A stretch of 64,000 nucleotides of DNA, from NCBI GenBank assembly GCA_007692425.1, contig RECG01000006.1:89288-153287 (forward strand), written 5' to 3'. This DNA comes from Acholeplasmataceae bacterium (GTDB lineage Bacteria; Bacillota_I; Bacilli_A; Acholeplasmatales; Acholeplasmataceae). The notes below the pieces were generated by a model that was not told the origin of the DNA, did no database searches, and saw nothing but the letters and a program-made list of their open reading frames with translations. The position numbers and the translations under genes are program-made. Each line of letters begins with the position of its first letter. Position 1 is the first letter of the stretch. Positions 4,171 through 64,000 of the stretch are shown here, in pieces.

Positions 4171-4224
4171 GCAATGAACATCAGATGAAACACAATGAAA
4201 TGAATGGATAAATCATGAATAATG

Positions 4225-4252
4225 TGGTAAAATTTATCAATAGGTGATGACA
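4225..4252 (+). promoter_or_regulatory. Compact extended -10 promoter plus SD of prfA
   Basis: TGG-TAAAAT (4225-4233) is followed by AGGTGAT (4242-4248) and ATG 4252. TGGATA at 4205-4210 is a possible -35 with 17-nt spacing. Only 18 nt lie between the -10 and the start codon, so transcription should begin at about 4240, next to the SD. The same layout recurs at yigZ, cca, yycJ and dnaE. Confidence 0.65.
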
Positions 4253-9189: not shown

Positions 9190-9223
9190 ATTCATGTTGA
9201 CAAACAGATAAAGGAGAATACAC

Positions 9224-9505: not shown

Positions 9506-9525
9506 ACCCATAAGGATTTGATGAC

Positions 9526-22328: not shown

Positions 22329-22369
22329 GATGTGTACACTCCTTCTTTGTATTTCATACAAGCATTATT

Positions 22370-44720: not shown

Positions 44721-44727
44721 TTCAAGT

Positions 44728-44780
44728 AAAAAAACATGTGGACCGCTATCATCAGGTAGAGGTGATCCACATGTTTTTTT
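44728..44780 (+). terminator. Terminator-like hairpin containing the SD and start codon of the next gene
   Basis: A 15-bp perfect stem (44728-44742 with 44766-44780) is followed by, and includes, a seven-T run. The 23-nt loop can form an inner hairpin CTATC-atca-GGTAG (44746-44759). The loop also contains the SD (GGTGA, 44761-44765), and the 3' arm contains the ATG at 44771 of the Ig-repeat gene. It is probably the ABC operon terminator, and would also hide that start codon. Confidence 0.75.
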
Positions 44781-46855
44781 GGTTATGGGTAAGCCAGTTG
44801 TTGACATTGGCACAATTTCATGTCGTCTGGATCAACGATGTCATCGATGTCGACCTATATGATGACATTTACAATTATGTCATGCTTCCTGAAGCGCATT
44901 TGTACATGAACGGTGAACGCGTCCACGATGCCGAAACCGCCTACATGCGTGGTGTTGACAGGACGTTCATCTCATCGATCAACACCGGGATCGTGCGTGA
45001 TTATGACATCACATATCGTGTTGAATTCCCCGCTTACAGCCTGACTTTCACCAAAACCATCGTCTTCAGGGTGCGGGATGTCGAACCGCCTGTTATTCAT
45101 GCCGTTCCGGTTTTCAGGATTCCGTTAGGTTCACGCATGCCTGATTTGTTGGAAGGTTTCGTTTACAGCGACAACTATGACAAGACCGAAGACCTTCACG
45201 TGACCGTGACGAGTCATCAGGTCGTGTTGAACCGGATTGGCACCTATGAGGTCCATTACCAGGTCAAAGACAGTTCCGGCAACATCAGCACCGCGACGGG
45301 ACAAGTCGAAGTCTATGACCATCTCGCTCCTGACGTCATTCAAAAAAAAGCGGTGCTCCTGCCCTATGGCGACGTCTTCGATCCCCATGTCTTTTTCACC
45401 ATCAAGGACAACTACGATCACGTCCTGATCATCGAGGTCGACGACAGTCTTGTCGATTATCAGTTGGTCGGGACTTATCCGCTTATCATTCATGTGCGTG
45501 ATCAAAGCGGCAACACCACGACGGTCCAGACGACGTTGACCATCATTGACATCGTCAAACCGTTCATCCGCCTACGCTCGCACCTCCCCGTGCTGCCCGT
45601 GCACGTCCCCATCGATGAGGCATTGCTCAGATCGTTGATTCTCGAGGCGGGTGATGATGTCGATCCGCTTGGCATCGATGATGTCATCATCAGCCATGAC
45701 ATCGATGTTGAAACCATCGGCACGTACAAGGTCTACTACACCTTGACAGATGGGTCGGGCAATGTCACCTTGGTGGTGGCCGATATCCGTGTGGCCGATC
45801 TCGAACCGCCCCGGATCACACTTTTGGAAACACCTGTTATCGAAGTGGGTGGCACCCTTCCGGATTTGTGGCAGTACGTCGATATCACAGACAACCACAC
45901 CCCTCGAGACCGCCTTGTCATCACCACGACCCACGACATCCGCCTGGACTTGATCGGTGTCTATGGGTGGCGTGTTGAAGCGACTGATGAAGCCAAGAAC
46001 ACGACAAGGCTTGACATCGCGGTTCATGTCGTCGACACCACCCCGCCACACATCATCCAGGTCGAACCGGTCATCATCACGGATTTTGCCAGCCGTTGCC
46101 TGCTGTCGTTTTTTCTCATCACGGACCACGGTGATGAGATTGAAGAAATGGACATTGTCATGGATGTTGATGCGGTCATCTTTCATGTTGCCGGCGTCTA
46201 TCCGTTGCGGATCCGCGCAACCGATCAAAGTGGCAACACCACATGGTTTGAAACCGAGGTTTATGTCATTGACATTGAGCCGCCGGTCATCGTCCTTCGT
46301 CAGGAACGGATCTATTTGCGTGTCGGCCAAAGCGATTATGATGTCATGGATAATCTGGCAGACATCCATGACAATCATGATGACCTGACGCATGCCGATG
46401 TCTTGGTCCATGGCGACATCGATTGGTCGAAACCAGGTGTTTATCACTTGGCGTTCGAAGTCACAGACAGCGCTGGCAACACGACCATTGCCACGTTCGA
46501 ACTCTATCTTGATGACATTGAACCACCCGTCATCACCAGCACCACGTTGTTTGTCAATGCGGGCGACCCGATCGATTTCCTTGAAGGCGTCCAGGTGACG
46601 GACAATGTCGGGATTCATCACATCAGCTGGTTTCCCCGGATCCTCGACACGACACTTCCCGGCGAAAAAATCGTGACCTACGTCGTCACCGATGTGCGCG
46701 GCAACATCACCATCCATGAACGCAAGATCATCATCTTGGCCCGAACCGGCGATTTGGCATTGACCGCATATTTACCGATGGGCATTGTCTCCATGTTGGG
46801 CGGAATGGCTGCCTATGCCATCAAACGCAAGACAGGCAAGGGCGATATCTTTTGA
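44771..46855 (+). CDS. Ig-like-repeat surface protein with C-terminal membrane anchor
   Basis: About 694 residues from ATG 44771. A hydrophobic N-terminus (FFWLWVSQLLTLAQF) acts as signal/anchor. Then come about seven bacterial Ig-like (DUF5011/HYR-like) repeats, each ending in a pattern such as YPLIIHVRDQSGNTT followed by a strand and (D)xEPPVI. A C-terminal helix (YLPMGIVSMLGGMAAYAI) and positive tail KRKTGKG anchor it; no LPXTG is seen. A longer frame from TTG 44717 would add 18 residues and cross the hairpin. Role unknown, probably adhesion or spacing at the surface. Confidence 0.75.
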   Translation: MFFWLWVSQLLTLAQFHVVWINDVIDVDLYDDIYNYVMLPEAHLYMNGERVHDAETAYMRGVDRTFISSINTGIVRDYDITYRVEFPAYSLTFTKTIVFRVRDVEPPVIHAVPVFRIPLGSRMPDLLEGFVYSDNYDKTEDLHVTVTSHQVVLNRIGTYEVHYQVKDSSGNISTATGQVEVYDHLAPDVIQKKAVLLPYGDVFDPHVFFTIKDNYDHVLIIEVDDSLVDYQLVGTYPLIIHVRDQSGNTTTVQTTLTIIDIVKPFIRLRSHLPVLPVHVPIDEALLRSLILEAGDDVDPLGIDDVIISHDIDVETIGTYKVYYTLTDGSGNVTLVVADIRVADLEPPRITLLETPVIEVGGTLPDLWQYVDITDNHTPRDRLVITTTHDIRLDLIGVYGWRVEATDEAKNTTRLDIAVHVVDTTPPHIIQVEPVIITDFASRCLLSFFLITDHGDEIEEMDIVMDVDAVIFHVAGVYPLRIRATDQSGNTTWFETEVYVIDIEPPVIVLRQERIYLRVGQSDYDVMDNLADIHDNHDDLTHADVLVHGDIDWSKPGVYHLAFEVTDSAGNTTIATFELYLDDIEPPVITSTTLFVNAGDPIDFLEGVQVTDNVGIHHISWFPRILDTTLPGEKIVTYVVTDVRGNITIHERKIIILARTGDLALTAYLPMGIVSMLGGMAAYAIKRKTGKGDIF

Positions 46856-47403: not shown

Positions 47404-47430
47404 TGCTATAATGGAAATAGGTGATCGCTT
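47404..47430 (+). promoter_or_regulatory. Compact extended -10 promoter plus SD of dnaE
   Basis: TGC-TATAAT (47404-47412), AGGTGAT (47419-47425) and a TTG start at 47430, with 17 nt between -10 and start. Same layout as prfA, yigZ, cca and yycJ. Confidence 0.65.
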
Positions 47431-50402
47431 TGTTCGGCATGTTTTATTTACAAAGTGCATATAGCATGCTCAACAACGTCATCCCGGTTGAGACACTGGT
47501 TGAAAAAGCCAAGTCCGCCGGCTATGATTTTGTTGCGCTGTCCGATGAAAACCTGCATGCGTTGCCGGCTTTTTTCCGCAGCGCCAACCACGCCGGCATC
47601 AAACCCGTCATCGGTTTGAGAATGACCGTCATGTGCGATGATGTGCCAAGCACGTTCCTGGTATATGTCCAAAACCGGAAAGGCTATGAGAACCTGCTCG
47701 ACCTGATCCGGCTCAAATTGGACAATGGCGAGGTGATGCTTGACGACCTTGACTCACGCCAACAAGGATTGGTTTGGATCACTTCGGCCCCTGACAACGT
47801 CATCATCGAGGCCATCTTGAATGATGATATTGACAACGCGGGAACTTATGTCCGCCGGTTTTCGGACCTGCTGTCGTCCTTTCATCTCGGGCTTTCCCTC
47901 GACACCATGGTCCTTGAGATGAAGGTGGCGCCTGCATTAATGGCACTGGCGGAGTCATTGGCGGTCAAAGTCGTGCCTTTGCATCAGACATCTTATCTGG
48001 TGCCGGAACAAAAAGAGGTTTATGAAGCGCTGATTAGGATTGCTGATGAAAAGAATACCATCCCGGAAGACGCCGACTATCATTTTCTGGACAAGACCGC
48101 TTTGCAGTCTTTGTTTTCAGAGTATCCGGTCGTTTTCGAACATGCGGCAGCCATTGCCAAGACCATTCGTTTCGATTGGCAGCCCCCCCGTTTCGAGATG
48201 CCTGCCTATCCGCTTGAGCAAGGTGTCAGCACGCAAGCCTACCTGTCATCCCTGGCCGGTATCGGCTTAAAGAAACGACTGCGACAACATCCTGTTTCCG
48301 ATGTGAAAAGTTATCAGAAACGACTCACCTACGAACTCACAATCATTGACAAGATGGGTTACAACGATTATTTCTTGATTGTCTACGACTTTGTTAAATA
48401 TGCCAAAAACAACGCCATCCTGGTCGGCCCCGGCCGGGGTTCGGCAGCCGGTTCGTTGGTGGCCTGGTGTCTCGGCATCACCGATGTCGATCCAATCGCT
48501 TATGACTTGTTGTTTGAACGGTTTCTCAATCCCGAACGGATGAGCCTGCCCGACATCGATCTCGATTTCCCTGACAACAGGCGTGACGAAGTCATCGACT
48601 ATGTCAAGACACGATATGGTGAGTCCCATATGGTATCGATCGTGACATTCGGCACGTTCGCGCTTCGTTCATCCATCCGTGACATCGCCCGCGTCATGCG
48701 TATCGATCCGGCCCGGGTCGCAGGCATCATCGCCCGTGCGAACAGCGGTGATTTCGATGACACCGATCATGAATTGATGCGTCTTCTGCGCGTTGCCAAA
48801 GCCATCGAAGGGTTGCCAAGACATACCGGCACCCATCCGGCCGGCATGATTCTTTCCAAACAGGACCTGACACGTCATCTCCCCCTTCAAGCAGGGTCTT
48901 TTACCTTTTATCAAAGTCAGTTTGAAGCCAAAGAACTGGAAGACATGGGGCTGCTCAAAATCGACTTTCTCGGCATCCGCAACCTCACAGTCATCGACGA
49001 TGTCCGCCAACACTTGAAAAACGCAGGCACGCCCCTGCATCTACCGGACATTGATTTGAAGGATGCCAAGACCTATCAGCTGTTATCAGAAGCCCGGACA
49101 TCCGGCGTGTTTCAACTTGAATCACATGGTATGCGCAACGTCCTGCGCAAACTCAAGCCCGACAACTTTGAGGATCTGGTGGCCATCCTGGCCTTGTACA
49201 GACCGGGCCCGATGAACAACATCGACACCTACATCGCCCGTCGTGCCGGCAAGCCATTCAAATATGTGCATCCCCTTCTGGAGCCGATCTTGAAACCGAC
49301 CTATGGCATCATTGTCTATCAGGAACAGATCATGCGCATCGCCAACGAATTCGCAGGCTACTCCCTGGCTGAAGCCGACCTGCTCAGACGCGGCATCTCC
49401 AAAAAAGACAAACAGATCCTGGAAGAAGAAAGGCAGCGTTTCATCGCCAAGTGCCAAAAACAAGGACACGAGAACACGCTGGCCGCTGACATTTACGATT
49501 ACATCGTCAAGTTCGCCGATTATGGCTTCAACCGCAGCCACAGCGTAGCCTACGCCCTGGTCGCCTATCAGATGGCCTATCTCAAAGCCAATCATTTTGC
49601 GGCCTTCATGAGCACGCTGCTGACCAGCATCATCGGCAATGAAGGCCTGACACTATCCTATCTGGACGAAATACGTAAAGAAGGGATTGACATCCTGCCA
49701 CCGGACATTCGCACCAGCGGTCTGGGTTATCAATATGAAGACGGCAAGATCATCCTGCCTTTGCTGGCCATCAAGACCCTGGGTCGGACGACGGTACAAA
49801 AAATCATCGATGTGCGTGACGCACAACCTTTTTCCAGTTATCACGACTTCAAACTCAGACTCAAGAAAGAACTCAACGAACGCAACATCGAAATGTTGAT
49901 ACATGGTGGTGCACTCGATGGTTTCGGTAAGAACCGGAAAACATTGGCTATGCACACCGAAATCGAAACTGCCGGATATGAACAGTACATCACAGATTTC
50001 AACATCCAGGATCATGACGACTACACATTTGCGGAAAAAGCCGGCTTCGAACGTGCCGCACTCGGGTTCAACCTACGTTATCATCCGGTCTTCATGTATC
50101 AGGATGTCAAAAAAAATAAACGTCTTGACGCGCTTGCCGACCTCGACCAAAAACACGTGGTCGTGGTTTTGGCTTACATGAAAGCAAGCCGCGAAATCAC
50201 AACCAAGACAGGGGAAACGATGGCCTTTGTCACCCTCGATGACGGACACCGTGAAATCGAAGCCGCGGTGTTTGCCGACCTGTACCAAAAGCAGCCGTCA
50301 CCGCTTACATCCGATGTCAGGATCTACACCATCAAGGCAAAGCAATATCAAGGCAGGAAAACCTATCAAATCGCAAACATCGAAAATATCGATAACGGCT
50401 AA
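47430..50402 (+). CDS. dnaE: DNA polymerase III alpha subunit, DnaE type
   Basis: C-family polymerase, about 990 residues. Active-site blocks are GPGRGSAAGSLVAWCLGITD and LPDIDLDFPDNRRDEVIDYV, then AILALYRPGPM, and a C-terminal OB fold (VVVLAYMKASREITTKTG). The PHP domain at the N-terminus has lost its metal ligands (LQSAYSMLNN and LSDENLHAL in place of HxH and TDH), so proofreading by PHP is unlikely. Probably the DnaE partner of PolC, as in B. subtilis, although shorter than the usual 1,100. TTG 47430 has the best SD spacing; ATG 47439 is the alternative. Confidence 0.9.
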   Translation: MFGMFYLQSAYSMLNNVIPVETLVEKAKSAGYDFVALSDENLHALPAFFRSANHAGIKPVIGLRMTVMCDDVPSTFLVYVQNRKGYENLLDLIRLKLDNGEVMLDDLDSRQQGLVWITSAPDNVIIEAILNDDIDNAGTYVRRFSDLLSSFHLGLSLDTMVLEMKVAPALMALAESLAVKVVPLHQTSYLVPEQKEVYEALIRIADEKNTIPEDADYHFLDKTALQSLFSEYPVVFEHAAAIAKTIRFDWQPPRFEMPAYPLEQGVSTQAYLSSLAGIGLKKRLRQHPVSDVKSYQKRLTYELTIIDKMGYNDYFLIVYDFVKYAKNNAILVGPGRGSAAGSLVAWCLGITDVDPIAYDLLFERFLNPERMSLPDIDLDFPDNRRDEVIDYVKTRYGESHMVSIVTFGTFALRSSIRDIARVMRIDPARVAGIIARANSGDFDDTDHELMRLLRVAKAIEGLPRHTGTHPAGMILSKQDLTRHLPLQAGSFTFYQSQFEAKELEDMGLLKIDFLGIRNLTVIDDVRQHLKNAGTPLHLPDIDLKDAKTYQLLSEARTSGVFQLESHGMRNVLRKLKPDNFEDLVAILALYRPGPMNNIDTYIARRAGKPFKYVHPLLEPILKPTYGIIVYQEQIMRIANEFAGYSLAEADLLRRGISKKDKQILEEERQRFIAKCQKQGHENTLAADIYDYIVKFADYGFNRSHSVAYALVAYQMAYLKANHFAAFMSTLLTSIIGNEGLTLSYLDEIRKEGIDILPPDIRTSGLGYQYEDGKIILPLLAIKTLGRTTVQKIIDVRDAQPFSSYHDFKLRLKKELNERNIEMLIHGGALDGFGKNRKTLAMHTEIETAGYEQYITDFNIQDHDDYTFAEKAGFERAALGFNLRYHPVFMYQDVKKNKRLDALADLDQKHVVVVLAYMKASREITTKTGETMAFVTLDDGHREIEAAVFADLYQKQPSPLTSDVRIYTIKAKQYQGRKTYQIANIENIDNG

Positions 50403-50618: not shown

Positions 50619-50660
50619 AGAAATAAATGGTGTAAGACTAAAAGAAAGGTGGTACTATTT

Positions 50661-53600
50661 ATGCCATCATTGCTATTGATTCAATGGGGTATCGTAGGTT
50701 TTTTCGTATTAATTCACTTTTTGATCGGCTTCAAGAGAGGTACGAGTAAATCCGGATACTATACTGTTGTCAGTATCCTGATGACCATTTTCACCCTATG
50801 GCTCGTTTCACTCATCACGATCCGTTGGTTCATTTCACCGGAGGGTTTGCTCAATCTTGTGCAAAACGCGACGGGAAATGGTGTGCCGGCTGATCTCGAG
50901 CAGCTGTTTTTAGACCCGAACTTAAGCGGCTTTGTATTCGCTATGATCGATTTGGTCTTGAGACTGCTCGCTTTCTTCCTGATCTATCCGCTACTGAAGT
51001 GGGTACTTACCTTCGCAGTCTTTAGAACAGTTTGGAAGCGTGTCGTCCTGAAAGAGTTGTTGAAACGGCAAAATGAAAGAATCAGCAGAGACATCGAGCA
51101 ACAGACAAGCCCGAGACCTGCCAAAACCAGAAAGAGACTCCAACTCAATGCCCAAAGCCGGCTATTGGGTGGCGCTTTTGGTGCGGTAAGAGGTTTTATT
51201 GTTGCTTTTGTTTTGCTTTTGCCGCTTTTGGTACTGGCCAGTTTCACCGCTGGCTTGTCAGAAGGCAGTGAACCACTTGCCAATGAAAACAACGAAATGC
51301 AGTTAAGCATCGCTGAACTGCAAAACGATGAAGCCATTCCCGGAGAGTTCCAAGAGCTGATTGACTATTTCAATCAACTCAACCGTGGTCCGCTCGGCTC
51401 ACTTGCACGCGCGACCAATATCGACCGCTTGCTTTTCGACATGGTATTCACCACCCGGATTGTCACGCCCGACCTCCCGACCGCAAGCATTAATTTCGGT
51501 GAGGAGTTCGAGGCCGTCTTCGGCATTGTATCCGTACTCATCGAAGGTGGCTACCTGAGTAGCGACTTTGATGTCGAATCCATTTCAGCGGATAATCTTG
51601 ATGACTTTGAACAAATTTTTGATTATCTGGGCCGTTCCAATTTGATCGCCTGGGTGATTCCCATCGCTGTCAAGTACGTGGTAGAGAATGTCCTGCCCGA
51701 ACAAATGGACGGCATCAACCTTTACGACAGGCCTGCCAGCGCCGCTGCGCTCGAGGCTTTTGGCGACATCGTCTGGAGCGAGGAGTTCTCCCGGCTCTAT
51801 GACGTCATCGAAGCCGTCTTGGAATTTGCTTCGGTTTCCGAGTTGATGATGTATGCCGATAATCCCGAATTATTGGCAGAGTTGACACAGGCTGAAGGTG
51901 AGGCATTGGCAGATATCTTCCGTGCCCTCGGACAACTGAAGACATTGACGCTGGTCAACATCGCTGTTGATTATGCGACCACACTTGAAGATCTTCATGA
52001 GATGTTAAGCTGGATGACACCGGAAGAAGCAGAAGCCTATTTACAGGATCGTCTGGACTTCATTCTTTCCGATGTCGAGTACTTTGTCGGTGACGAAGGC
52101 GTCTTGGCTGACATTGCCAACCTGATTGCATTCTTCTTTGATGACACCTATGATGTCGACCTTTCCGTCCTTTTCGATCTCGAGGATAATCCCGAAGCAT
52201 TGCTTACTGAAGGTTTTGCTGAATGGTTGGGCGCTTTGATTGATGAATTGATTGAAATTCAATTGGTCATGGAATTGATACCGCTTGGTGTCGATATCGC
52301 CATTTACAACACGTTTGGTGAAGATGCTGAATATACGTTTGCTGAAGACTTGATCGAAGCGTTTGAAGACGTTGAATGGGATCAAGAGTTCACCAATATC
52401 GGTGACATCTACAAAGAAATCGTCAAGCTTGGCTTGGGCGTTCTCTTTGAAGACGATGCCGACCTTTATGCCTTGATTGATGAACTGGCCGTCGATCACA
52501 TGCCGACACTGCGTGTGATCGTCCATAAGATTTTCGAAGACAGCCAAATCATCAACAAGACGTTTGAAGTCGCCGCTCCGGCCGTCATCGACCTTGCATT
52601 TGAAGATGATGAGGAACTGCGCGACCTGTTACTGACCATCCTGATGGAAGATGATGAACTCATTATCAGCCTGGGTCAGGAAGTCAACACCATTCTTGAT
52701 ATTGTAGAAACCTTATATACTTTCACCACCGTTTCCGAATTGATTGACATGATGGAAATGGATACAGAAGACCAACTGGCATTCATCGATGACCTGCTGA
52801 CTGATCACATGCCAGCATTACGTGTGATCATTTCACAAGTGTTCGAAGATAGCCAGATTGTCAGCCGAGCCGTCAACCTTGCCACCGCCCGGGTGCTGGC
52901 CATGGTCTTTGATGAAGAAGACGATTTATATGACCTTCTGATGACGGTTTTGATCGAAGATGATGAACTCGCCATTGATCTGGTGGCGGAATTCAACACC
53001 ATCCTTGATATTGTCGAAACGCTTTACACCTTTACAACCCTGTCTGAATTGTTGAGCGTCATGGATGAAGACACAGAGGCGCAACTCGCCTTTGTCGATG
53101 ATCTCATGACCGACCACATGGCTGCCTTGCGCACGATCATCGGACAGATTTTCGAAGACAGCCAGATTGTCAGCCGTTCACTTGATTTGGCCATGGGACA
53201 AGTCTTGAGACTGGTGATCGATGAGGAAGATGAACTATTTGATCTTCTTGAAATCGTCCTGGTCGAAGATGATGCGCTCGCGATCGACATCGTGGCGGAA
53301 TTCAACACCATTCTTGACATTGTCGAAACGCTCTACACCTTTACAACATTCTCCGAACTCGTGGAAGTGATGGATCAGGACACAGAGGCGCAACTCGCCT
53401 TTGCCGACGATGTATTGGTTGACCACATGGCGGCATTGCGCACCATTGTCGGATACATCTTTGAAGACAGCCAGATTGTCACCCGTTCACTTGATCTGGC
53501 CATCACACAGGTCCTCGGTCTTGTGGTTGACGAAGATGACAGATTCTATGACTTTATCGAAACGATATTGATTGAAAATGACGAACTCGCCATTGACATG

Positions 53601-56600
53601 GCCTTGGAGTTCAACAACATCCTTGATATCGTCGAATCCCTTTATGCCTTCACCACGCTGTCAGAATTGATAGGCGTCGGTGATTTCGAGACGCAGGAAC
53701 TGGTTGAATTTATCGGCCGTTTCGGTGCGATTGATGAAGCAGAATTTGATCAACTGCATGATGCGGTGCTCAGCCTGCAAGTCCTTGCACGCATGGGGGC
53801 CTCCGAATTACAGTTCATCAAGGACGAGATGGAAATCGACATGCTCTATGTGCCGACAACCGTCGACCTTGGTGCCGATCTCTCCACCGTTCTCGGACTG
53901 GCTTATCACGTTGCCTTGTACGTCAATGACGCGTTGGTCGTGACGCCGGACTATGAAGACATTGACCTTGCACCTTTGTTTGCCGACCTTGAATTCAGAG
54001 CCTATCTGATGAGCACGGAAGCAGACAAACATTCCGATCTTATTCTTGCCAACATCGCTTATCTGCTCCAAACCATGAGCGAAGATGAAGAAGGCATTGG
54101 ACAATTCCTGTTCCTGCCGGATGTCTTGGCGGATGCCGATCCGGAAAGCGAATTGTGGGTTGCTGAGATCAACGCTTTGCTTGAAGCGGTCTTTGATCTT
54201 GCCGCCTACTTTGTCGACTCGCCTTATCTGACACTCTCATTAAATGGCATCAATGCGCTGACAGAAGACATCGGTGCGGTCCAACTTGGTCTTGTGACCC
54301 AGTTTGCCGACATGGCCGAAGTCGACGCAGCCTTTGGTGGTTTTGATGCATCCATGATTTTCAGAAGCAGCGTGCCGGCTGTCATCGACGGACTTGAAAT
54401 CGAGCTTGTCGAAGGATTTGTCCTGGCCACGCCTGACCTGGTCATTGAAGACAACATGTTGCTTGCAGGCGTTCTTGGAGAAACCATCCAAGCGGTTGCC
54501 AACTTCCTGCATGAACTGAATGACACGCTTGGATTCGCGACCGTCGCCGATTTGACGGATAACGAAGACATGCTGTTATTCCTTGAAGCATACAACGAAG
54601 TCAGTATCACCGCCATCAACACGTTGGTCGGTGCCGATCTGCTACGTGGCATCATCAGCGACGCGCTGCTCAGCCCTGACGTCCAGGCATTTGTCCGTGA
54701 AACGGTCAATGCCGGCGTCGAAGGTCTGACCGTCAGCAGTGATTTCTTCGCCTTTGAAAGAAGCAATGGTCTGACCACACAAGATCTGGCCGACCTGTTG
54801 ATTGCCATCCATGCCCTTCAGATCACACGTGATGTGATTGAAGCGCCAGATATGCATGTGTTTGCCTATCTTGCCACTTTTGATGATGCGAAACTCAATA
54901 CCGTATTTGATGCACGCATGTTGCGTGAAATCATGACGTTCGTCATCACCGATATCGGTGTGATGGAATTTGTCGCCGGCATGATCGAGGAACAACTTGA
55001 TGCCGCCTTGGCTGATATCGAAATGCTCCAAGACATGGATTTTGGCGATCTGCTTGATGTCATGCCCATCCTTGAATACATCGCCAGCATCCGTGGAGAT
55101 GACGGGCTGTTCGACGTGTTCGAGATCAAGAACCTGATCAAGACCGTCAACACGCTCGGCCTGACCACCCTTTATGACCTGGACAACTTTGAGGACATCG
55201 CATATATCCATCAAGTGATTGCCACAACCGGTGTCGTCGAACAGTTGTTTGCATCCGAACGCATCCATCGCAGCCTCAGCTATTCGTTGACCAATCCGGA
55301 GACCCATGAAATCCTGGCCGAACTAGTCTCGTCGGTCCTTGAGGAACTCACTGGTGTCCCGCATGCGTTCGATCCCGAACTCTTCAATCTGAACCAGCCG
55401 AAATATAATCTGTTCGAATTCAACACACACTTTGGTTGGTTGATCAATGTGGCCGACATCAAGCAATTGCTGTTGTCGGCAACCCGTGTTGACTGGTTGG
55501 CCATTCCGATCGGTGAACAGGAAACCACGCTTGATCTCGTATTTGCCTTGGTGGATTACTTCATGACAGAGGATCGATTTGATGTGACTCACATCGACTA
55601 CATCCTGAACTCGAAGATCATCATGGCTGTCATTGACAAGGCCATCAACCTTGAAACCAATGACTACGGGTTGCAAGAATACTATGTTTCGGTCATCAAC
55701 AACATGTTGCCTGATTTCGGCATTGACTTTCTTGATGGTGTCGAATTCACCGACAACCTGCTTGCCATGCGTGGCATCTCAGATGAACAAGGCGTTCTAA
55801 AAGCTTCCGAGCTTGTCGCCATCCTCAAGACCGTCCAACTGGTCGGACTCAAGGTGGACTTTGACAATATCACGCTTGATACCGCGCTTGGCTTCATTGA
55901 TACCGATGACAACGAGAATGACATTGAGGACTATGAGGAACTGTTCCAGTCGACTATTCTGCTAAGCTTGATCACCAATGTCTTGGGCGAACCCGCCGTG
56001 ATTGACATCCTGCGTGGCTTTGCCGAACCGATCATTGATGAATTCCTGGCTTCAGACGCGCTGTTCAACGGACTTGTCATCGACCTCGAACCGATCCTGT
56101 TGATTCCTTCGAAGATTGTCGATGAAGATGGCAACTTCGATTACATGGATGTTCGTGGCGTGCTGGTCACCCTGAATCGTCTGGGTGTCGGCGGCTTCGA
56201 CAACATCCTCGATGATCTATTGAATATTCCGCTTGATGCGTTGTATGTCCTGGTTGAAATCGAAGAAGATGGCGTCAACGGACTGCGTTTCCTTGCCGAC
56301 ACGAAGACCATTCGTCTCATCTTTGATGCCGCCTTAAAGCAAGACGGTGCCATCGAATGGGGCCTTGGCCTTGCCAGTGCCAACCTTGGCATCGATCTGA
56401 ACGGTATGGATCTGACATTCGGCACACAATTCGATGATGAGACGGGCGCATTGTCCGCGGATCATTTCTATGAACTGCTGCTGGCGCTTGCCACTGTTGA
56501 CATCAACGCGATTCTGGCCGAAGAGGATACGCTTGCCATCGTACTCGCCCTGCTTGACGAACCTTTCACGCACGTGCCTGGCGATGCGCTGCTCCATCTT

Positions 56601-59600
56601 TATAATTCCGCGATTCTTGTCCATCTGATTTCCACGGCAATCGAATATGAAGCGCTTCAGAACTTTGCGGTCGACATGCTGAACGGCATCTTGGAGGATA
56701 TCATCGCCGGCCTGTCTCCTGATCTTACCGTCAGGGCGCTCACGGCCGAGGAACTAGGCATCTCTTATGCCTTGATCGACGAACCTGCCACCCGCGCGTT
56801 GCTAGTTGCCATCCGCAATACCGGTATCCGTAGCCTGGGTGAAGCACTCGAACTGGATACGATTCCCAAGATTGTCGAACAACTGAACCTTGAGAACAAT
56901 CGTTCCATCCTGCTCAATCTGCTGAACGCACCACTGGTCAAACATGTCATCAGCACCGTGTTACTCAACGATCTTTGGAGCGACGTCGCGGCCCAGTATG
57001 TCAATTTGATGGGTGCCGACTTCGATATTGAAATTGATGCTGAACTGCTTGTCATCGATCCAGCGCTTGTCGGTGCAGACGGCTATCTCAACATGACACA
57101 CATCCTTGAATTGATCGTCGTGGCTTATGTTGTCCTGACCGTTGATACCGAATTCACACCGGAGACCTTGCGCAAACTGGAAGACAACCTGCGCTTCGTC
57201 GGTGTGCTTCAGCCACGGATTGACCACATCCTGGATTCGACAATCCTGCATAACTATATCTATCGCATCCTCACCGACCAGGGCATGAAGGAACTCGCCG
57301 CTGATCTGCTCACCGCGCAACTCGAATCATTGGGTCTTGAGTTGACCATCAATGCCGACCGTTTCAATGTTCCACCGGCCGCCTTTGAAAACAACCAGCT
57401 CAAACGTTCCGAAGTGTATGCGTTACTGGGTGCGTTCAACGAACTCAACCTTGACAGCTTTGACGATTTTGGCAACTTCATGGATATCGATTATGTCTAC
57501 GACGTGATCGACAGCACCTTGGTGATCGAGAAACTGTTCTCATCGCTTTGGGTCCATGTCAGCGTCAGCAAGTTCTTCACCGATCTGGCTGCCCTGGGAG
57601 AGATTGCTGATATCGCCACCGCTTACATCAAACTTTATACAGGTATCGACCATACCATCACCTATGAAGACCTTGACTTTACAGAAGCCAAGTACGGATT
57701 GTTCTATCATGATGCCGAAACAGAAGAGATGCTTCTCCATGTTTCCGAAATCAAGCAATTCCTGCTTGCCGGCACCAGAATCAACTGGCTCGATCTCGAG
57801 ATCAGTGATGACCTGAATGCCGTGACCGATATCCTTGATCTTATCATGGCTGAAGGCACAGACAATGTCCGCAACATCGACTTCATGCTCGAGTCCAAGA
57901 TGTTGGTCGCCGTGCTCGACAAGCTGTTGAACATGGAAACCGACCCGATCGGCCTGAGATTGTTCTACACCGAACTGCTCAACACCTACCTGCCGCAACT
58001 CGGTATCGAACTGCTTGAGGATGTCGTGCTTTCCGACAACATCCTGACCATGCGTGGCGTAAGCGATGAGAACGGTGTCTTGAAGGCATCTGATCTGATT
58101 GCCATCTTTGATGCGCTTGAACTGCTTGATATCGCCGACGGCTTTGCTGTCGAGAAACTGTTCATGTTCATCGGACGTGATGCCAACGGCAACGGTGTCG
58201 AAGACTATGAAGACCTGTTCGCCTCCAAGTTGTTGCTCAGCTTGTTGACCAACGTCCTGTTCGAGGAAGACCTGCTTGATCTGGCCGCCGGCCTGATCGA
58301 GGAGATGCTTGATGACCTGTTGGCGTCAGACGCCATGTTTGAAGGTCTCGAACTCGACCTGCATCCGCTGGTGCGCATCCCGCAACAAATCATCGACGCG
58401 GAAGGCAACTTCGACTATATGGATCTGCGCCGGATTATCACGGTGCTCGAATTGCTTGGCGTCACCGAATACATGACATCCACGACACCGACCCAAACCA
58501 TGGCCACCTTCTTCGATGAATTGAACGCGATTCCGCTTTATGCCCTGCAAATCCTGGCTGAAGGCCAGGTCAATGGTGATAACGGACTGCTCTACATCGC
58601 ACAGACCAAGATTATCCGTGCGCTCTTCGACGCCGCCTTCAAGCAGGAAGGCCTGATTGACTGGGGTCTCGAATTCGGTACTGATACGCTTGATATCGAC
58701 CTGACAACCCTCAATCTCGTCTTTGGCACACAATTCGATGATGAGAACGGCGTGGTCTCCGTCGATCATCTATATGAATTCTTGCTGGCGCTCGCCGCCA
58801 TCGACGTTAAAGCGGTCCTGGACCAGGTAGATTCGCTCTACATCGTCCTTGCCTTGCTTGACGAACCATTCAGTTTCACATCTGGCGACCGCCTGTCCCA
58901 TCTTTATAATTCGGACATCCTTGTCCATATCTTAAGTGAAGTCATTGAGAACCCGGAAATTCAAAACTTCGGTGTCGACATGCTCAATGACATCCTTGCC
59001 GATGTCGTTGCCCAGTTGTCGCCTGACATTTCCGTGCGCCCGCTGACCGCAGCCGAACTCGGTTTGACTTACGACCATTTTGACCAACCCGCCACACGTG
59101 CATTGCTGGTCGCCCTGCGTAACACCGGCATCCAGACCCTGAGCGAAGCGCTTGAACTGGATACGGTCCACAAGATTGCAGACCAGCTCAACCTTGTCAA
59201 CAGCCCCGTGAAACTGTATGATGTCTTGAACGCACCATTGGTCAAACATATCATCAGCACCGTGCTGCTCAATGATTTGTGGACGGATATCACCGCCCAA
59301 TATGTCAACCTGCTGGCCGCTGATTTCGGCATCGAGATCGATGCGGACCTGCTGGTGATCGACCCGGCGCTTGTGGGTGCCGACGGCTATCTTGACATGA
59401 TGGACATCGTTGACCTGCTCGTGGTCGGTTATGTCATCGTCTCGCTTGACACCCAGTTCACACCGGCAACCTTGCGCAAGCTTGAGGACAACCTGCTGTT
59501 CATCGGCAAGAACCAGACACAGCTCGACCACATCCTGGATTCTGAAATCCTGATGACCTATGTCGATCGTATCCTGCTTGACATCCGCTTCAAGGAGCTT

Positions 59601-62600
59601 GCCGCCGATTATGCCAACGACCAGCTTGAAGCCTTGGGTCTCGCCGTGGTCCTGCAACCTGATGCCCTGAACGTGCCCGCCATCGCGCTTGATGAGAACG
59701 GGCGGATCAAACGCTCTGAAGTTCATGCCTTGCTGGCCGCTTTCAACGAGCTCAACCTTGGAAGCTTCGATGAATTTGAAAACTTCACCGACCTGGGCTA
59801 TGTGTATGACAAGATCTACAACACGACCTTTGTCGAAAAGCTGCTTGTGTCCAAGTGGGTCCATGTCAGCCTGAGCAAGGTCTTCACCGACGAGAACATC
59901 CTGAATGAACTGGCCGGACAGGCTTCGGCCTACCTGGAACTGTACACCGGTGTCGATCCCGAACTGTCGGGCGGCGACCTTGACTTCACACAAGCCAAGT
60001 ATGGCCTGTTCTATCATGATGCCGAAACCGATGAACTTTTGATCAAGCCGATCGAAGTCAAGCATTTCCTGCTGGCTTTAACGCGCATCGACTGGCTGAA
60101 CCAGACCTATGCCTCCGACCTCAGCGTCGTGGCCGACATCGTTGACATGCTGCTCGCCAGCGGCAACGACGGCATCCGCAACATCGACTTCATGCTTGAA
60201 TCGAACATGCTGCTTGCCATCTTTGACAAACTGTTGAACCTTGAAACCGACGAACTCGGTCTCAAGGATTACTACACTGCGGTGTTGAACAGGTTCTTGC
60301 CTGAGTTTGGTCTTGACATCGAGCTTGGCGGCAACGCCCTTGCCCTGAGGGGCATCAGCGGAGCCGACGGCGTGCTCAAGGCCTCTGAAATCACCGCCAT
60401 TCTGACCATCGTCGACCTGTTGAAGCTTGACCAACCGTTCACCGCTGACATCGTCTTCGACTTCGTCGGCGTCGATGCCAACAACAACGGTGTTGAAGAC
60501 TTCATCGACCTGTTCGCTTCGAACATCGTCCTCAGCATCCTCACCAACGCGCTCAGCGAACCAGGCATCCTTGACTTGGCGAAGGATCAGCTCGAGCAGG
60601 TGATCGACAGCTTCGCCCTGATCAGCGATTATACGTTCGATCTTGATGCGTTCCTGGCGGTTCCCGCCCTCATCGTCGATGCCGAAGGCAATTTCGATTA
60701 CATGGATCTCAGACGCATCTTTGTCACGCTCGAACAACTGGGCATCCAATCAATCAATGATTTCGACAGCATCGGACTTGACGCGCTGTTCATCCTGATC
60801 GAATCGCAAGAGGAAGGACTCAACGGCCTCGAGAATGTCGCTCACTCCAAACTTGTCCGTTATCTTGTCGATGCGATGCTGAAGCAAGACGTGCTCTCTG
60901 ACATCATCGTCGATCTTGCCGAAGAATTCGCCGGCATCAACTTGGCCGCTTTCGAAGTCACATTCGATGCGTTCGATGATGCCGACGGCAGACTTGCGTA
61001 TGATCATTTCTATGAACTGCTTGTCGCATTGGCGGCGGTCAACACCAATGACATCACCGAAGGCGTCATCCGCCTTGGCATCCTGTATGAATTGCTCGAT
61101 GAGCCGTTCACCCTGGTTCCGGGCGACCGTCTTTCCCATGTGTACAATTCCGATATTATCACGCACATCCTGCGTGAAGCGGTGGAAAGCACCGGCCTTC
61201 AGAACTTCCTGGTCGACCTGGTCAATGACAACCTTGAAGACCTGGTCCAAAGCCTGGACAACCGTCTGACGGTCCGCGCCCTGACGCGCGAAGATCTCGG
61301 TTTGACATTCGCCCTCTTTGATGAGCCGGCGATGCGTGAGCTGATCCTGGCCGTTCAAGGCACAGGTGTGGTCACCATTCCGGAAATTCTCAGTTTGACG
61401 AACCTTGACCTGATCGCCGAACAACTCCATTTCGTCACCACCGCATCCAAAGTCATGCCGTTGCTTGAAGCACCGCTGGTCCATCATGTGATCAGCACGG
61501 TCCTCCTGCTGGATATCATTCCGGATGTTGGTGCACAATACATCAACCTGCTGGCTGCTGACTTTGGCATTGAAATCGAATCTGATCTCCTTGTCCTCAG
61601 TGAGAAGCTGCTGGATGAAGAAGGCATGGTCGCGGTCGAGCATATCTTTGATGCGCTCGTGGCAGCCTATGCCGCCATCACCACCGGCACCGCCTTTACA
61701 CCTGAATACTTGAGAAACCTTGAAGGCATGACCACCATTGCCGGCATCACCCGGCAACGGATTGATTTCATCCTGGCCTCCGACTTCCTGATGACCTATG
61801 TCGATCGCTTGATCCTGGATGAAGGCGTGAAGGAAATCGCCGCTGATCTGTTAAGCGAACAACTCAGAGCCCAAGGCCTCGATGTCACCATCAATCCTGA
61901 ATTGCTGAATGTGCCGATGGCCGCCCTTGAAGAAGATGGCAGATTGAAGACCAGCGAAGTCAAGGCGATTCTCATCGCCTTCAATGAACTCAATCTGGGC
62001 AGCTTCGATGATTTCAACAACTTTGGCAACATTGATTACATCTACAGCAAGGCGAACAACACGACCTTTATCGAAAAACTCTTCGTCTCGAAGTGGATCC
62101 ATGTCTCCCTGAGCCGCGTCTTCACTGATGAGAACGTGCTTGCGGCATTGGCCGAGGGCGCTTCCACAGTGCTCCGCCAACAGTTGGGCATCGAACATGA
62201 CTTCGACGCGGAAGACTTCGACTTCACCCTTGAACAATATGACTTGTTCGTCTATGATGAAGAACTTGATGAACTTTTGATCAAGCCGATCGAAGTCAAG
62301 CGCTTTGTCGTTGCCGCCACCCGCATCAACTGGCTGACGGTCTCACTGGGAACAGGACCAGAAATTATCAACAATGCCGCTGATCTCTTGCTTGATACCG
62401 GCACCGATGGCATGCGCAACATCGACTTCATGCTTGAATCGAACATGCTCCTGGTCATTCTTGACAAGGTGCTGAACTTCGAATATAGCACACTCGGACT
62501 GGCAGATGTCGCGATTGAATTCGCCAACGGCCTGTTCGAAGACATTGCTTTCTTTGAAGGACTGGTGCTCACACCAGACATCCTTTATTATGATTCACGC

Positions 62601-64000
62601 GCGCTCGATGAGAACAACATGTTGACCAGAACAGAAATCGTGAAACTGATCGAAGCCGCATCCTTGCCGAACCTCAGACAGACCATCTATGTCGGCACCT
62701 TCTACAACCTGGTTGAATCAGGCGACTTCAGCAGACTGTTCGAATCTTATATCCTTTACAGCCTGATTTCAAACGTCTTGACCGATGAAAACATCCGTGC
62801 TTTCGGCATCGCCATGGTCAATGACATGCAGAGCCTGGCCGTGATTCCCGAATCGTTCCTTGAGTTCGATCCGATCCTCATGGACGGCAACCTGATCAAG
62901 GTCGAAGAATTCGAGAACCTGCTCATCGCCCTTGACAGCCTCGGCTTAACCACCCAGGCGGCTCTGGACAGCCTTAACCTGAATACATTCACCGGCCTTG
63001 TCGGTCGCAACATTGACGACGGCAAGGACGATCTGGATCGTCTGCTTGACTCCGGCATCATCTACATCCTGCTCGACAAGGTCCTGAAGTTTGAAGGTCT
63101 TGGTGAGTTTGTCGCCGGTATTCTGGCTGATGCGCTTGACCGCGATATCGTCTATGTTGACTTGACACCGCCAGCCATCATGCTGGGCGGACCAAGCCTT
63201 GATGCAATCGAAGTCGGACGCGTGACCAAACAAGAATTCAGAAACATCATCGTGGCACTTGATCTGCTTGACCTTCAAGCGTTGGCGGGTGGTGCCGAAT
63301 TCGGCATCGACACAATCACCGACCTTGTGGATTACAACGATCCAAACGATGACTTCACCACCGTGCTTGCATCCGATTACATCTACCTGCTCCTGGCACG
63401 TGTCTTTGAAGATGAAACAACCAGCGACGCCTTTGGTGGCTTCTTGAGCAATGCCTTCGGTGAAGATGTCGAAGTCGACCTTTCCGCACCTGAAGATGCG
63501 AAGGGCACGACCGGCATCGAAGCGGGATACATCACACGCGTTGAATTACGCAAACTGATGATTTCTGTGAAACTGCTCGGCATCACCGGCCTGCCGGATG
63601 AGGATTCGATTGATATCACGACCATCATGGATATGATCGGCCGTAACGATCTCGATCCGCTCATGGACGATTTTGAAATCTTCCTTGATTCACTCTACCT
63701 GCAAGCCAAGCTTTCAATGATTCTCCTCTCAGACGGCGTGATCGAACTGATTTCGGGCGAAGGCGCCCTGTTCGATCCGGTAGACTTCTGGTTGCCGGCC
63801 AACGCTTATTACTTCACACAAACCGACCGGATGGTCAAACTGGAGCTTTACAACCTGTTTGCCGGACTGAAGGTCTTGGGTATCGACGATCTTGAAGACT
63901 TCGACCTGGGCGTTGACACTGTCACCAGCCTGAGTGAAGCCGATATCGACGTCATCCTCGACTCTGCTTACCTCTATACGATCCTCGACTTGGTCATCAA
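50661..64000 (+). CDS. Giant CvpA-like membrane-anchored repeat protein (3' end outside window)
   Basis: At least 4,446 residues with no stop. Residues 1-200 have four membrane helices (about 9-24, 32-56, 90-120, 169-197); SRLLGGAFGAVRGFIVAFVLLL fits the CvpA (colicin V production) family, written here in part: LLGGAFGAVRGF. Positive loops (GFKRGTSK, and a Lys/Arg-rich loop at about 122-168) put the rest outside the cell. From about 200 on it is acidic, Lys-poor, apparently all-helical and free of Cys in what I translated. It is built of about 103-residue modules, each headed by a helix like KASEITAILTIVDLL. Four copies are nearly identical (612-1023); later ones form super-units of about seven modules, with EF-hand-like loops. 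Function unknown; adhesion, envelope spanning or cell contact are possibilities. Confidence 0.85.
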   Translation, partial: MPSLLLIQWGIVGFFVLIHFLIGFKRGTSKSGYYTVVSILMTIFTLWLVSLITIRWFISPEGLLNLVQNATGNGVPADLEQLFLDPNLSGFVFAMIDLVLRLLAFFLIYPLLKWVLTFAVFRTVWKRVVLKELLKRQNERISRDIEQQTSPRPAKTRKRLQLNAQSRLLGGAFGAVRGFIVAFVLLLPLLVLASFTAGLSEGSEPLANENNEMQLSIAELQNDEAIPGEFQELIDYFNQLNRGPLGSLARATNIDRLLFDMVFTTRIVTPDLPTASINFGEEFEAVFGIVSVLIEGGYLSSDFDVESISADNLDDFEQIFDYLGRSNLIAWVIPIAVKYVVENVLPEQMDGINLYDRPASAAALEAFGDIVWSEEFSRLYDVIEAVLEFASVSELMMYADNPELLAELTQAEGEALADIFRALGQLKTLTLVNIAVDYATTLEDLHEMLSWMTPEEAEAYLQDRLDFILSDVEYFVGDEGVLADIANLIAFFFDDTYDVDLSVLFDLEDNPEALLTEGFAEWLGALIDELIEIQLVMELIPLGVDIAIYNTFGEDAEYTFAEDLIEAFEDVEWDQEFTNIGDIYKEIVKLGLGVLFEDDADLYALIDELAVDHMPTLRVIVHKIFEDSQIINKTFEVAAPAVIDLAFEDDEELRDLLLTILMEDDELIISLGQEVNTILDIVETLYTFTTVSELIDMMEMDTEDQLAFIDDLLTDHMPALRVIISQVFEDSQIVSRAVNLATARVLAMVFDEEDDLYDLLMTVLIEDDELAIDLVAEFNTILDIVETLYTFTTLSELLSVMDEDTEAQLAFVDDLMTDHMAALRTIIGQIFEDSQIVSRSLDLAMGQVLRLVIDEEDELFDLLEIVLVEDDALAIDIVAEFNTILDIVETLYTFTTFSELVEVMDQDTEAQLAFADDVLVDHMAALRTIVGYIFEDSQIVTRSLDLAITQVLGLVVDEDDRFYDFIETILIENDELAIDMALEFNNILDIVESLYAFTTLSELIGVGDFETQELVEFIGRFGAIDEAEFDQLHDAVLSLQVLARMGASELQFIKDEMEIDMLYVPTTVDLGADLSTVLGLAYHVALYVNDALVVTPDYEDIDLAPLFADLEFRAYLMSTEADKHSDLILANIAYLLQTMSEDEEGIGQFLFLPDVLADADPESELWVAEINALLEAVFDLAAYFVDSPYLTLSLNGINALTEDIGAVQLGLVTQFADMAEVDAAFGGFDASMIFRSSVPAVIDGLEIELVEGFVLATPDLVIEDNMLLAGVLGETIQAVANFLHELNDTLGFATVADLTDNEDMLLFLEAYNEVSITAINTLVGADLLRGIISDALLSPDVQAFVRETVNAGVEGLTVSSDFFAFERSNGLTTQDLADLLIAIHALQITRDVIEAPDMHVFAYLATFDDAKLNTVFDARMLREIMTFVITDIGVMEFVAGMIEEQLDAALADIEMLQDMDFGDLLDVMPILEYIASIRGDDGLFDVFEIKNLIKTVNTLGLTTLYDLDNFEDIAYIHQVIATTGVVEQLFASERIHRSLSYSLTNPETHEILAELVSSVLEELTGVPHAFDPELFNLNQPKYNLFEFNTHFGWLINVADIKQLLLSATRVDWLAIPIGEQETTLDLVFALVDYFMTEDRFDVTHIDYILNSKIIMAVIDKAINLETNDYGLQEYYVSVINNMLPDFGIDFLDGVEFTDNLLAMRGISDEQGVLKASELVAILKTVQLVGLKVDFDNITLDTALGFIDTDDNENDIEDYEELFQSTILLSLITNVLGEPAVIDILRGFAEPIIDEFLASDALFNGLVIDLEPILLIPSKIVDEDGNFDYMDVRGVLVTLNRLGVGGFDNILDDLLNIPLDALYVLVEIEEDGVNGLRFLADTKTIRLIFDAALKQDGAIEWGLGLASANLGIDLNGMDLTFGTQFDDETGALSADHFYELLLALATVDINAILAEEDTLAIVLALLDEPFTHVPGDALLHLYNSAILVHLISTAIEYEALQNFAVDMLNGILEDIIAGLSPDLTVRALTAEELGISYALIDEPATRALLVAIRNTGIRSLGEALELDTIPKIVEQLNLENNRSILLNLLNAPLVKHVISTVLLNDLWSDVAAQYVNLMGADFDIEIDAELLVIDPALVGADGYLNMTHILELIVVAYVVLTVDTEFTPETLRKLEDNLRFVGVLQPRIDHILDSTILHNYIYRILTDQGMKELAADLLTAQLESLGLELTINADRFNVPPAAFENNQLKRSEVYALLGAFNELNLDSFDDFGNFMDIDYVYDVIDSTLVIEKLFSSLWVHVSVSKFFTDLAALGEIADIATAYIKLYTGIDHTITYEDLDFTEAKYGLFYHDAETEEMLLHVSEIKQFLLAGTRINWLDLEISDDLNAVTDILDLIMAEGTDNVRNIDFMLESKMLVAVLDKLLNMETDPIGLRLFYTELLNTYLPQLGIELLEDVVLSDNILTMRGVSDENGVLKASDLIAIFDALELLDIADGFAVEKLFMFIGRDANGNGVEDYEDLFASKLLLSLLTNVLFEEDLLDLAAGLIEEMLDDLLASDAMFEGLELDLHPLVRIPQQIIDAEGNFDYMDLRRIITVLELLGVTEYMTSTTPTQTMATFFDELNAIPLYALQILAEGQVNGDNGLLYIAQTKIIRALFDAAFKQEGLIDWGLEFGTDTLDIDLTTLNLVFGTQFDDENGVVSVDHLYEFLLALAAIDVKAVLDQVDSLYIVLALLDEPFSFTSGDRLSHLYNSDILVHILSEVIENPEIQNFGVDMLNDILADVVAQLSPDISVRPLTAAELGLTYDHFDQPATRALLVALRNTGIQTLSEALELDTVHKIADQLNLVNSPVKLYDVLNAPLVKHIISTVLLNDLWTDITAQYVNLLAADFGIEIDADLLVIDPALVGADGYLDMMDIVDLLVVGYVIVSLDTQFTPATLRKLEDNLLFIGKNQTQLDHILDSEILMTYVDRILLDIRFKELAADYANDQLEALGLAVVLQPDALNVPAIALDENGRIKRSEVHALLAAFNELNLGSFDEFENFTDLGYVYDKIYNTTFVEKLLVSKWVHVSLSKVFTDENILNELAGQASAYLELYTGVDPELSGGDLDFTQAKYGLFYHDAETDELLIKPIEVKHFLLALTRIDWLNQTYASDLSVVADIVDMLLASGNDGIRNIDFMLESNMLLAIFDKLLNLETDELGLKDYYTAVLNRFLPEFGLDIELGGNALALRGISGADGVLKASEITAILTIVDLLKLDQPFTADIVFDFVGVDANNNGVEDFIDLFASNIVLSILTNALSEPGILDLAKDQLEQVIDSFALISDYTFDLDAFLAVPALIVDAEGNFDYMDLRRIFVTLEQLGIQSINDFDSIGLDALFILIESQEEGLNGLENVAHSKLVRYLVDAMLKQDVLSDIIVDLAEEFAGINLAAFEVTFDAFDDADGRLAYDHFYELLVALAAVNTNDITEGVIRLGILYELLDEPFTLVPGDRLSHVYNSDIITHILREAVESTGLQNFLVDLVNDNLEDLVQSLDNRLTVRALTREDLGLTFALFDEPAMRELILAVQGTGVVTIPEILSLTNLDLIAEQLHFVTTASKVMPLLEAPLVHHVISTVLLLDIIPDVGAQYINLLAADFGIEIESDLLVLSEKLLDEEGMVAVEHIFDALVAAYAAITTGTAFTPEYLRNLEGMTTIAGITRQRIDFILASDFLMTYVDRLILDEGVKEIAADLLSEQLRAQGLDVTINPELLNVPMAALEEDGRLKTSEVKAILIAFNELNLGSFDDFNNFGNIDYIYSKANNTTFIEKLFVSKWIHVSLSRVFTDENVLAALAEGASTVLRQQLGIEHDFDAEDFDFTLEQYDLFVYDEELDELLIKPIEVKRFVVAATRINWLTVSLGTGPEIINNAADLLLDTGTDGMRNIDFMLESNMLLVILDKVLNFEYSTLGLADVAIEFANGLFEDIAFFEGLVLTPDILYYDSRALDENNMLTRTEIVKLIEAASLPNLRQTIYVGTFYNLVESGDFSRLFESYILYSLISNVLTDENIRAFGIAMVNDMQSLAVIPESFLEFDPILMDGNLIKVEEFENLLIALDSLGLTTQAALDSLNLNTFTGLVGRNIDDGKDDLDRLLDSGIIYILLDKVLKFEGLGEFVAGILADALDRDIVYVDLTPPAIMLGGPSLDAIEVGRVTKQEFRNIIVALDLLDLQALAGGAEFGIDTITDLVDYNDPNDDFTTVLASDYIYLLLARVFEDETTSDAFGGFLSNAFGEDVEVDLSAPEDAKGTTGIEAGYITRVELRKLMISVKLLGITGLPDEDSIDITTIMDMIGRNDLDPLMDDFEIFLDSLYLQAKLSMILLSDGVIELISGEGALFDPVDFWLPANAYYFTQTDRMVKLELYNLFAGLKVLGIDDLEDFDLGVDTVTSLSEADIDVILDSAYLYTILDLVI
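52494..53729 (+). repeat. Four tandem 309-bp (103-residue) repeats
   Basis: Unit starts at 52494, 52803, 53112 and 53421 are exactly 309 bp apart. Each begins DHMxALR(T/V)I, then FEDSQIV, a DEEDEL-type acidic loop and EFNTILDIVETLYTFTT. The middle units are the most alike, the fourth drifts at its end. Confidence 0.92.
55905..55940 (+). other. EF-hand-like loop 1 in the giant protein
   Basis: DDNENDIEDYEE (residues 1749-1760). Positions 1, 3, 5, 9 and 12 are acidic or Asn; position 6 is Asp instead of Gly. Confidence 0.5.
58179..58214 (+). other. EF-hand-like loop 2 in the giant protein
   Basis: DANGNGVEDYED (residues 2507-2518) fits the 12-residue calcium loop fully: D1, N3, N5, G6, V7, D9, D12. 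Confidence 0.6.
60474..60509 (+). other. EF-hand-like loop 3 in the giant protein
   Basis: DANNNGVEDFID (residues 3272-3283) again fits the calcium loop. It lies at the same place in its super-unit as loops 1 and 2; the fourth super-unit has lost it. Confidence 0.6.

Follow-up and report, generated by a model that had tools for sequence, protein, structure and literature searches.

The gene that runs to the end of the window (the whole 64,000-nucleotide stretch of Acholeplasmataceae DNA analysed here) encodes a protein of at least 4,446 residues. We propose that this protein is a membrane-anchored giant, in which a CvpA-like domain of four helices probably holds acidic helical repeats outside the cell as a recombining surface coat or tether. 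This reading supports the overall interpretation of the initial annotation, whose main points, made from the letters of the sequence, were correctly read. Relatives of this unnamed giant occur across the bacterial class, and it is therefore likely a member of a widespread, undescribed family of cell-surface proteins.

A single open frame is cut by the end of the assembly

A stop-free frame of 4,446 codons extends from the ATG at 50661 to base 64000 on the + strand (50649/50661..64000), and the C-terminus of the giant lies beyond the assembly. A ribosome-binding site, AAAGGTGG (50645..50652, +), read off the sequence and rated good, is located 8 bases 5' of the ATG. A scan for promoters and terminators 5' of the gene was uninformative, with four promoter-like sites against 2.2 in shuffled sequences and, over the start codon, one terminator-like site against 0.7.

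The window ends where its contig ends (C20, 153,287 bases) in a source genome of 1.45 Mb in 29 contigs, and the protein encoded by 60000-63998 matched C20 as the sole contig of its own genome. Therefore, the gene is cut by the assembly and its stop codon is out of reach here. The frame of a relative in genome G001, which is 52% identical over residues 1-705, likewise ends at a contig end.

The GC content by codon position keeps one phase over 50661-61160, with 24-34% at the second position and 55-71% at the first and third positions; therefore, no frameshift is visible in this interval. Relatives encode the same protein and confirm that the giant frame is a real gene. The initial annotation had described one frame open to the window edge and had named a frameshift or an assembly error splitting the gene as what would speak against it; the frame holds no stop over its 4,446 codons, and the steady codon-position GC and the long homologues argue against such a split. 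Irregular frames were seen elsewhere. In genome G019, the giant frame (L070:3452-9079, +) overlaps a frame of 448 residues without a Pfam family (9042-10388, +), and the two are possibly one gene split by a frameshift. In G035 (C1 near 983000; L014, L067), an otherwise long homologue has an in-frame TAG near its start, which is either a decayed copy or a sequence error.

Two close homologues suggest the full length and a variable repeat number

A protein search yielded two close homologues, P0025 (4,566 aa) and P0026 (4,819 aa), both with complete-looking C-termini that resemble those of stop-terminated relatives. P0025 runs 866 residues and P0026 1,119 residues past the point that matches the last residue of the window. 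If the missing end is like that of P0025 or P0026, the full length would likely be ~5,310 or ~5,565 aa, respectively (about 5,300-5,600). On the suggested extension towards the stop codon, the two homologues give an inferred length; the assembly itself ends at 64000.

P0025 is 99-100% identical to the window protein over residues 1-700 and 4001-4400, and 85-98% identical per 100 residues over 701-2500. One block of 746 residues, spanning the junction of super-repeats B and C (described below), is absent from both P0025 (2702-3447) and P0026 (2705-3450). Identity of P0025 flanking this block falls to 72% and 53% before it and 75% and 79% after it; that of P0026 is 80-97% per 100 residues, save 66% at 1901-2100 and 53-81% around the gap. 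In the second copy that remains in P0025 and P0026, the first sixth resembles copy B of the window (82%) and the last half resembles copy C (91-95%). Judged from these alignments, the missing block and the mixed B/C copy appear as the pattern that unequal exchange between repeats gives. P0025 carries no source, and its missing block could therefore be an assembly effect. P0026, the more distant homologue, also has two copies, so that among the three sequences compared, three copies may be the derived state.

The N-terminal domain resembles CvpA

Residues 1-200 (50661..51260, +) form a CvpA-like membrane domain with four predicted membrane helices. Hydropathy peaks at residues 4, 36, 90/103 and 179, and the structure model places helices within residues 1-200 at 4-26, 28-50, 86-147 and 164-185/187-200, so that hydropathy and model agree on the four membrane helices expected of a CvpA. 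Together with the alignment, they bear out the four helices and the GAVRGF helix that had been noticed at the N-terminus.

The Pfam family PF02674 matched residues 160-193 (51138..51239, +), a segment with the invariant R-x2-G-x3-G-x3-G, at 18.5 bits (E 0.002), which does not reach the Pfam gathering cut-off of 29.3. Among the 14 members of the window-centred set (A2), PF02674 matched 8 at E<=1 (best 7.5e-5), and the large frame of genome G046 scored 24.3 bits. NCBIfam scans of three N-terminal domains and of P0009 gave nothing near a cut-off. We compared the profile of 20 diverse family members (A5) with that of 10 canonical short CvpA proteins of 195-247 residues (A3), which were taken from 10 of the 12 genomes above the Pfam cut-off, with G038 and G047 left out. 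With hhalign, A5 versus A3 gave 95.9% (E 5e-9) over 178 columns, which is homology over most of the domain; A2 alone versus canonical CvpA gave 89.8% over only 47 columns, and an unrelated cation-efflux transporter family used as a negative control gave 1.3% for A5 and 0.8% for A3. Moreover, G23, G27, K30, R167, G170, G174 and G178 are invariant in the 20 diverse members.

These profiles identify residues 1-200 as a distant CvpA homologue. The initial annotation had proposed a Pfam search of this domain and had named a lack of CvpA similarity as what would count against it: Pfam stayed below threshold (18.5 versus 29.3 bits), and the family profile (95.9% over 178 columns, against 1.3% for the control) detected the similarity. 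A CvpA is a small protein that ends soon after helix 4, and the giant has more than 4,446 residues. Because it fails the strict Pfam and size limits, we do not class the protein itself as a CvpA.

The long part is predicted to lie outside the cell

We compared loop charges in the window protein and 18 relatives. The net charge of loop 1 and of loop 3 is positive in 19/19 proteins. Loop 2 and the 60-residue stretch following helix 4 are net positive in 1/19 each, and the net charge of residues 200-700 is negative in 19/19. Under the established positive-inside rule, positively charged loops lie inside, and this loop-charge pattern predicts that both ends of the giant, the long part included, are outside the cell. 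The same prediction had been made from charge distribution for everything after helix 4, and the loop charges in the 19 aligned proteins now lead to it.

The long part is free of cysteine and has a net charge of -14 per 100 residues, against -9.0 to +2.1 in 15 other long open reading frames of the window. This, with repeats at several scales, matches the acidic repeats first described. Of 20 fetched frames of relatives, 17 reach a stop codon, the possibly split L070 among them, and 15 of these 17 likewise lack cysteine in the long part. In the last 80 residues of these 17 relatives, no stretch exceeds a hydropathy of 1.8, the strongest being a marginal 1.77 in L082, and an LPxTG-like motif was found in one C-terminus (LPSTG in L078), where no strong hydrophobic stretch follows it. 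A separate acidic frame of 1,002 residues (19353-22361, -; net -9 per 100) matched no Pfam family at E<=1e-3.

The long part is built of repeats at several scales

A mostly helical, membrane-proximal part (residues 201-590; 51261..52430, +), which could be aligned in the window protein and 18 relatives, is followed by a tandem array of about four 103-residue repeats (residues 595-1010; 52443..53690, +). A further stretch (residues 1011-1649; 53691..55607, +) leads to super-repeats A (55608..57893, +; 762 residues), B (57894..60200, +; 769 residues) and C (60201..62438, +; 746 residues), which are 47-56% identical among themselves. Further, more diverged modules (residues 3927-4446; 62439..64000, +) are cut by the contig end. 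The model of residues 1-710 is confident and mostly helical (pLDDT 81.7), as is the model of super-repeat A (pLDDT 82.7), and the long part is predicted to consist of mostly helical repeats. A module of 80 residues is present in 18 of 33 further frames and absent from the other 15. It was counted 628 times in the 35 proteins searched, a count that may include drift because the model was grown from one P0026 seed over six rounds.

Foldseek and VIA searches with two models (residues 1-710 and one super-repeat) yielded no convincing structural relative; many weak Foldseek matches of the super-repeat are armadillo- and importin-type scaffolds. Among PDB sequences, a profile search with A2 found no match, and one with the alignment of super-repeat copies (A4) found none better than E 0.46. 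A single module folded alone might match a known structure, since the models used are long. Pfam was run on window-protein residues 1-3,113, on the module consensus and on P0026 and P0003; all matches were sub-threshold, and no adhesin domain was recognised in these parts. The distant relative P0055 bears Ig-like labels. Precomputed Pfam labels on 4/35 and 5/20 homologues from two protein searches showed no usable shared pattern.

The UniRef name of a Peloplasma homologue suggested calcium binding by EF-hands. The canonical EF-hand loop is described by the PROSITE pattern PS00018, which had no match in the window protein and 0-7 matches per homologue, with none in most of the 55 proteins; the Pfam scans showed no EF-hand, and we rejected this as the organising idea. 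The loop motif DxNxNGVxDxxD is seen in 5 of the 9 super-repeat copies of alignment A4, and these loops may bind metal in a manner other than that of an EF-hand.

Neighbouring genes

The gene for DNA polymerase III alpha, dnaE (47421..50402, +), lies upstream of the giant gene. Among 20 fetched relatives, a frame of dnaE size (973-994 residues) was found near the giant in six and a cation-efflux gene in eight. The second gene upstream of dnaE (44717-46852, +) encodes an acidic protein of 712 residues in which PF16403 matched three Ig-like surface domain stretches; from its sequence, it is likely a second surface protein near the giant. In a fetched relative (L069:1-6001, -), the region just past the giant gene encodes a subtilase that has Ig-like and RCC1-like repeats and measures 2,000 residues within the fetched stretch.

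The architecture recurs in the order and the class

With residues 1-1200 as query (E<=1e-3), 30 of 61 genomes matched, the source genome included: 24/37 of its own family (13/37 had none) and 6/24 in other families of the order, with frames of up to 4,167 aa, the window's own aside. The alignment A1 holds the window protein and 18 of the 29 relative loci from this search; left out were L014 and L016 (in-frame stops), L026, L028 and L029 (late start or early end), L023 (unused) and L034-L038 (weak). The A5 profile (E<=1e-3) matched 78 of 198 genomes of the class, 71 of them with a frame of at least 800 residues, and 16 of 18 own-family genomes among those listed; each matching genome carries one to three matches. 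In a scan of the phylum at E<=1e-6, 36 of 195 genomes matched, all from the same class or nearer, in a sample whose share from outside the class is not given. Relatives that look complete range from 1,629 to 4,819 aa, and the longest frame matched by A5, of 6,056 residues, reaches the first base of its contig. The search for the same architecture in related genomes that the initial annotation had recommended thus shows that the giant is not a one-off.

Most homologues are called hypothetical protein by their sources. P0009, from Peloplasma aerotolerans, is also labelled EF-hand domain-containing protein, and two JGI entries bear unlikely enzyme names; odd source names (transposase, siroheme synthase) were taken for errors. 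The Hujiaoplasma nucleasis homologue P0036 (HF295_01790, 2,941 aa) was found through an A5 match in G150. Large CvpA-like genes stand side by side, one longer than the other, in L108 (650-9475 and 9582-12449) and L109 (513-8423 and 8547-12515), and similar pairs were seen in G179 (C4) and G215 (C9), in one related family that includes Hujiaoplasma. Short CvpA-like matches in G126 (C1:622609-623103) and G298 (C1:675323-675805) have in-frame TGA codons; these genomes perhaps read TGA as tryptophan, and the count of large frames could be too low wherever TGA serves as a sense codon.

We found no description of CvpA giants, or of giant proteins in these bacteria, in the open-access literature, and a term search of the main text of a survey of huge proteins (PMC11573180) gave no occurrence of CvpA, colicin, Tenericutes, Mycoplasmatota or Bacillota.

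Cell wall context

The transpeptidase family PF00905 was found in 0/37 own-family genomes, this one included, and in 7 of 61 genomes overall; MraY had no match in this genome. The cell is thus predicted from its gene content to be without a peptidoglycan wall. Two cultured bacteria carry homologues, Peloplasma (P0009) and Hujiaoplasma (P0036), and passages in PMC11122141 and PMC10470597 describe these genera as wall-less by electron microscopy. Passages in PMC10868615 discuss peptidoglycan loss in related orders and do not contain the term CvpA.

Across 198 genomes, 20 have both MraY and a large frame, 67 MraY only, 51 a large frame only and 60 neither. Large frames are commoner without MraY (51/111) than with it (20/87; Fisher p 0.001, uncorrected for kinship); therefore, they are more frequent where the wall gene is missing but also occur where it is present. 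A strict link to wall loss was considered and is not claimed, as there are many exceptions on both sides in this kinship-uncorrected set. Very long CvpA-like frames were also seen in G165 (C7, L117; 6,056 aa, cut by the first base of the contig), whose genome has an MraY match, and in G223 (C11, L103; 4,803 aa), whose MraY match is below the family cut-off; therefore, the largest forms are not confined to genomes that lack wall genes.

Discussion

We favour a working model in which the four helices would insert into the membrane and export of the chain that follows helix 4 would accompany its synthesis. The CvpA-like domain would act chiefly to signal export and to anchor the protein. The repeats would then reach out from the membrane and make surface contacts, as a coat or in attachment to cells or particles, and exchange between repeats in unequal register would change their length and renew the exposed sequence. 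The anchor-only role is the weakest step, because the conserved residues hint at more. Passages in PMC6705877 report that CvpA in enterics promotes resistance to deoxycholate (a bile salt), is linked to colicin V export and is suggested to have a transporter-like fold; by analogy with these canonical properties, the membrane domain might do more than anchor.

This analogy can be extended to an active transporter or stress sensor, with the giant outer part as its ligand-binding or regulatory part, a scaled-up version of fusions between CvpA and proteases. We consider this improbable, though it has points in its favour: the seven glycine or basic positions invariant in 20 members, proteins on record with four N-terminal helices and an extracytoplasmic protease domain, and the entry of Colicin_V in a list of domains joined to serine proteases. 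However, Pfam shows no catalytic domain in window residues 1-3,113 or P0026, and a length range of 1,629-4,819 aa suits a spacer better than an enzyme. Slightly less improbable, yet still unlikely, is that the giant forms a continuous mechanical exoskeleton replacing peptidoglycan. The excess of large frames in genomes without MraY (with kinship uncorrected) and the lack of a transpeptidase in all 37 own-family genomes would fit such a substitute, but 20 genomes with MraY have a large frame, 60 without MraY have none, and one to three matches per genome are few genes for a full coat unless they are highly expressed.

The armadillo- and importin-type character of many weak Foldseek matches could instead place the long part in the cytoplasm, as a scaffold tethered to the membrane, and helical repeat scaffolds of such size are mostly intracellular in eukaryotes. 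The positive loops 1 and 3 in 19/19 proteins and the acidic, cysteine-free long part make this location very improbable. Hardly credible at all is that the length is an artefact of an assembly error or of a decayed gene read through. The frame does stop at a contig end, the G035 relative has its in-frame TAG, and the L070 frame overlaps its neighbour as a split gene would; these points are outweighed by the steady codon-position bias over 50661-61160, by super-repeats only 47-56% identical to one another and by homologues of 1,629-4,819 aa from independent genomes and collections.

The surface coat or tether that we favour for this protein may have a wider meaning. Tentatively, undescribed CvpA-anchored giants across the class could form the outer surface of wall-less Bacilli, as a recombination-varied coat partly standing in for a wall. 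The covering of free-living wall-less bacteria, which have little more than a membrane, is in our judgement poorly known, and the family, which occurs in cultured, named environmental species and bears no functional name, is a concrete candidate for what these organisms have on their surface. At the inferred full length, if correct, the gene would take up ~1.1% of the 1.45-Mb genome. Moreover, it would put the CvpA domain to a use far from its textbook role, joined to a helical repeat without a convincing solved relative.

Comparison with known systems

Embp of staphylococci, an example of the giant Gram-positive surface adhesins, is also a very long surface protein, with helical repeats. Export and anchoring of Embp-like proteins differ from those of the giant, whose predicted anchor is N-terminal and CvpA-like. 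With CvpA itself (Colicin_V, PF02674), the giant shares a membrane domain with GxxxGxxK-like and RxxGxxxGxxxG-like glycine motifs and the profile match of 95.9%; it differs in its sub-threshold Pfam score and in having at least 4,240 residues beyond the domain.

The MarP-type serine proteases of mycobacteria have N-terminal helices that we take to be CvpA. Window residues 1-3,113 and P0026 contain no Pfam family of trypsin-like proteases. As described in passages of PMC4992679, MarP-like proteases combine four N-terminal helices with a periplasmic domain, and PMC2605481 lists Colicin_V among the domains found with serine proteases. The likeness to the giant lies in a four-helix membrane domain followed by an extracytoplasmic C-terminal part; MarP differs in being small (397 residues in the described homologue), in having a catalytic domain and in lacking giant repeats. 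A four-helix N-terminal domain joined to an extracytoplasmic domain thus has a smaller precedent. Further counterparts are the unnamed giants of Acholeplasmataceae and Izemoplasmatales, P0009 and P0036, which share the N-terminal homology and the giant size, but are shorter (2,922 and 2,941 aa) and are named hypothetical, uncharacterized or EF-hand domain-containing.
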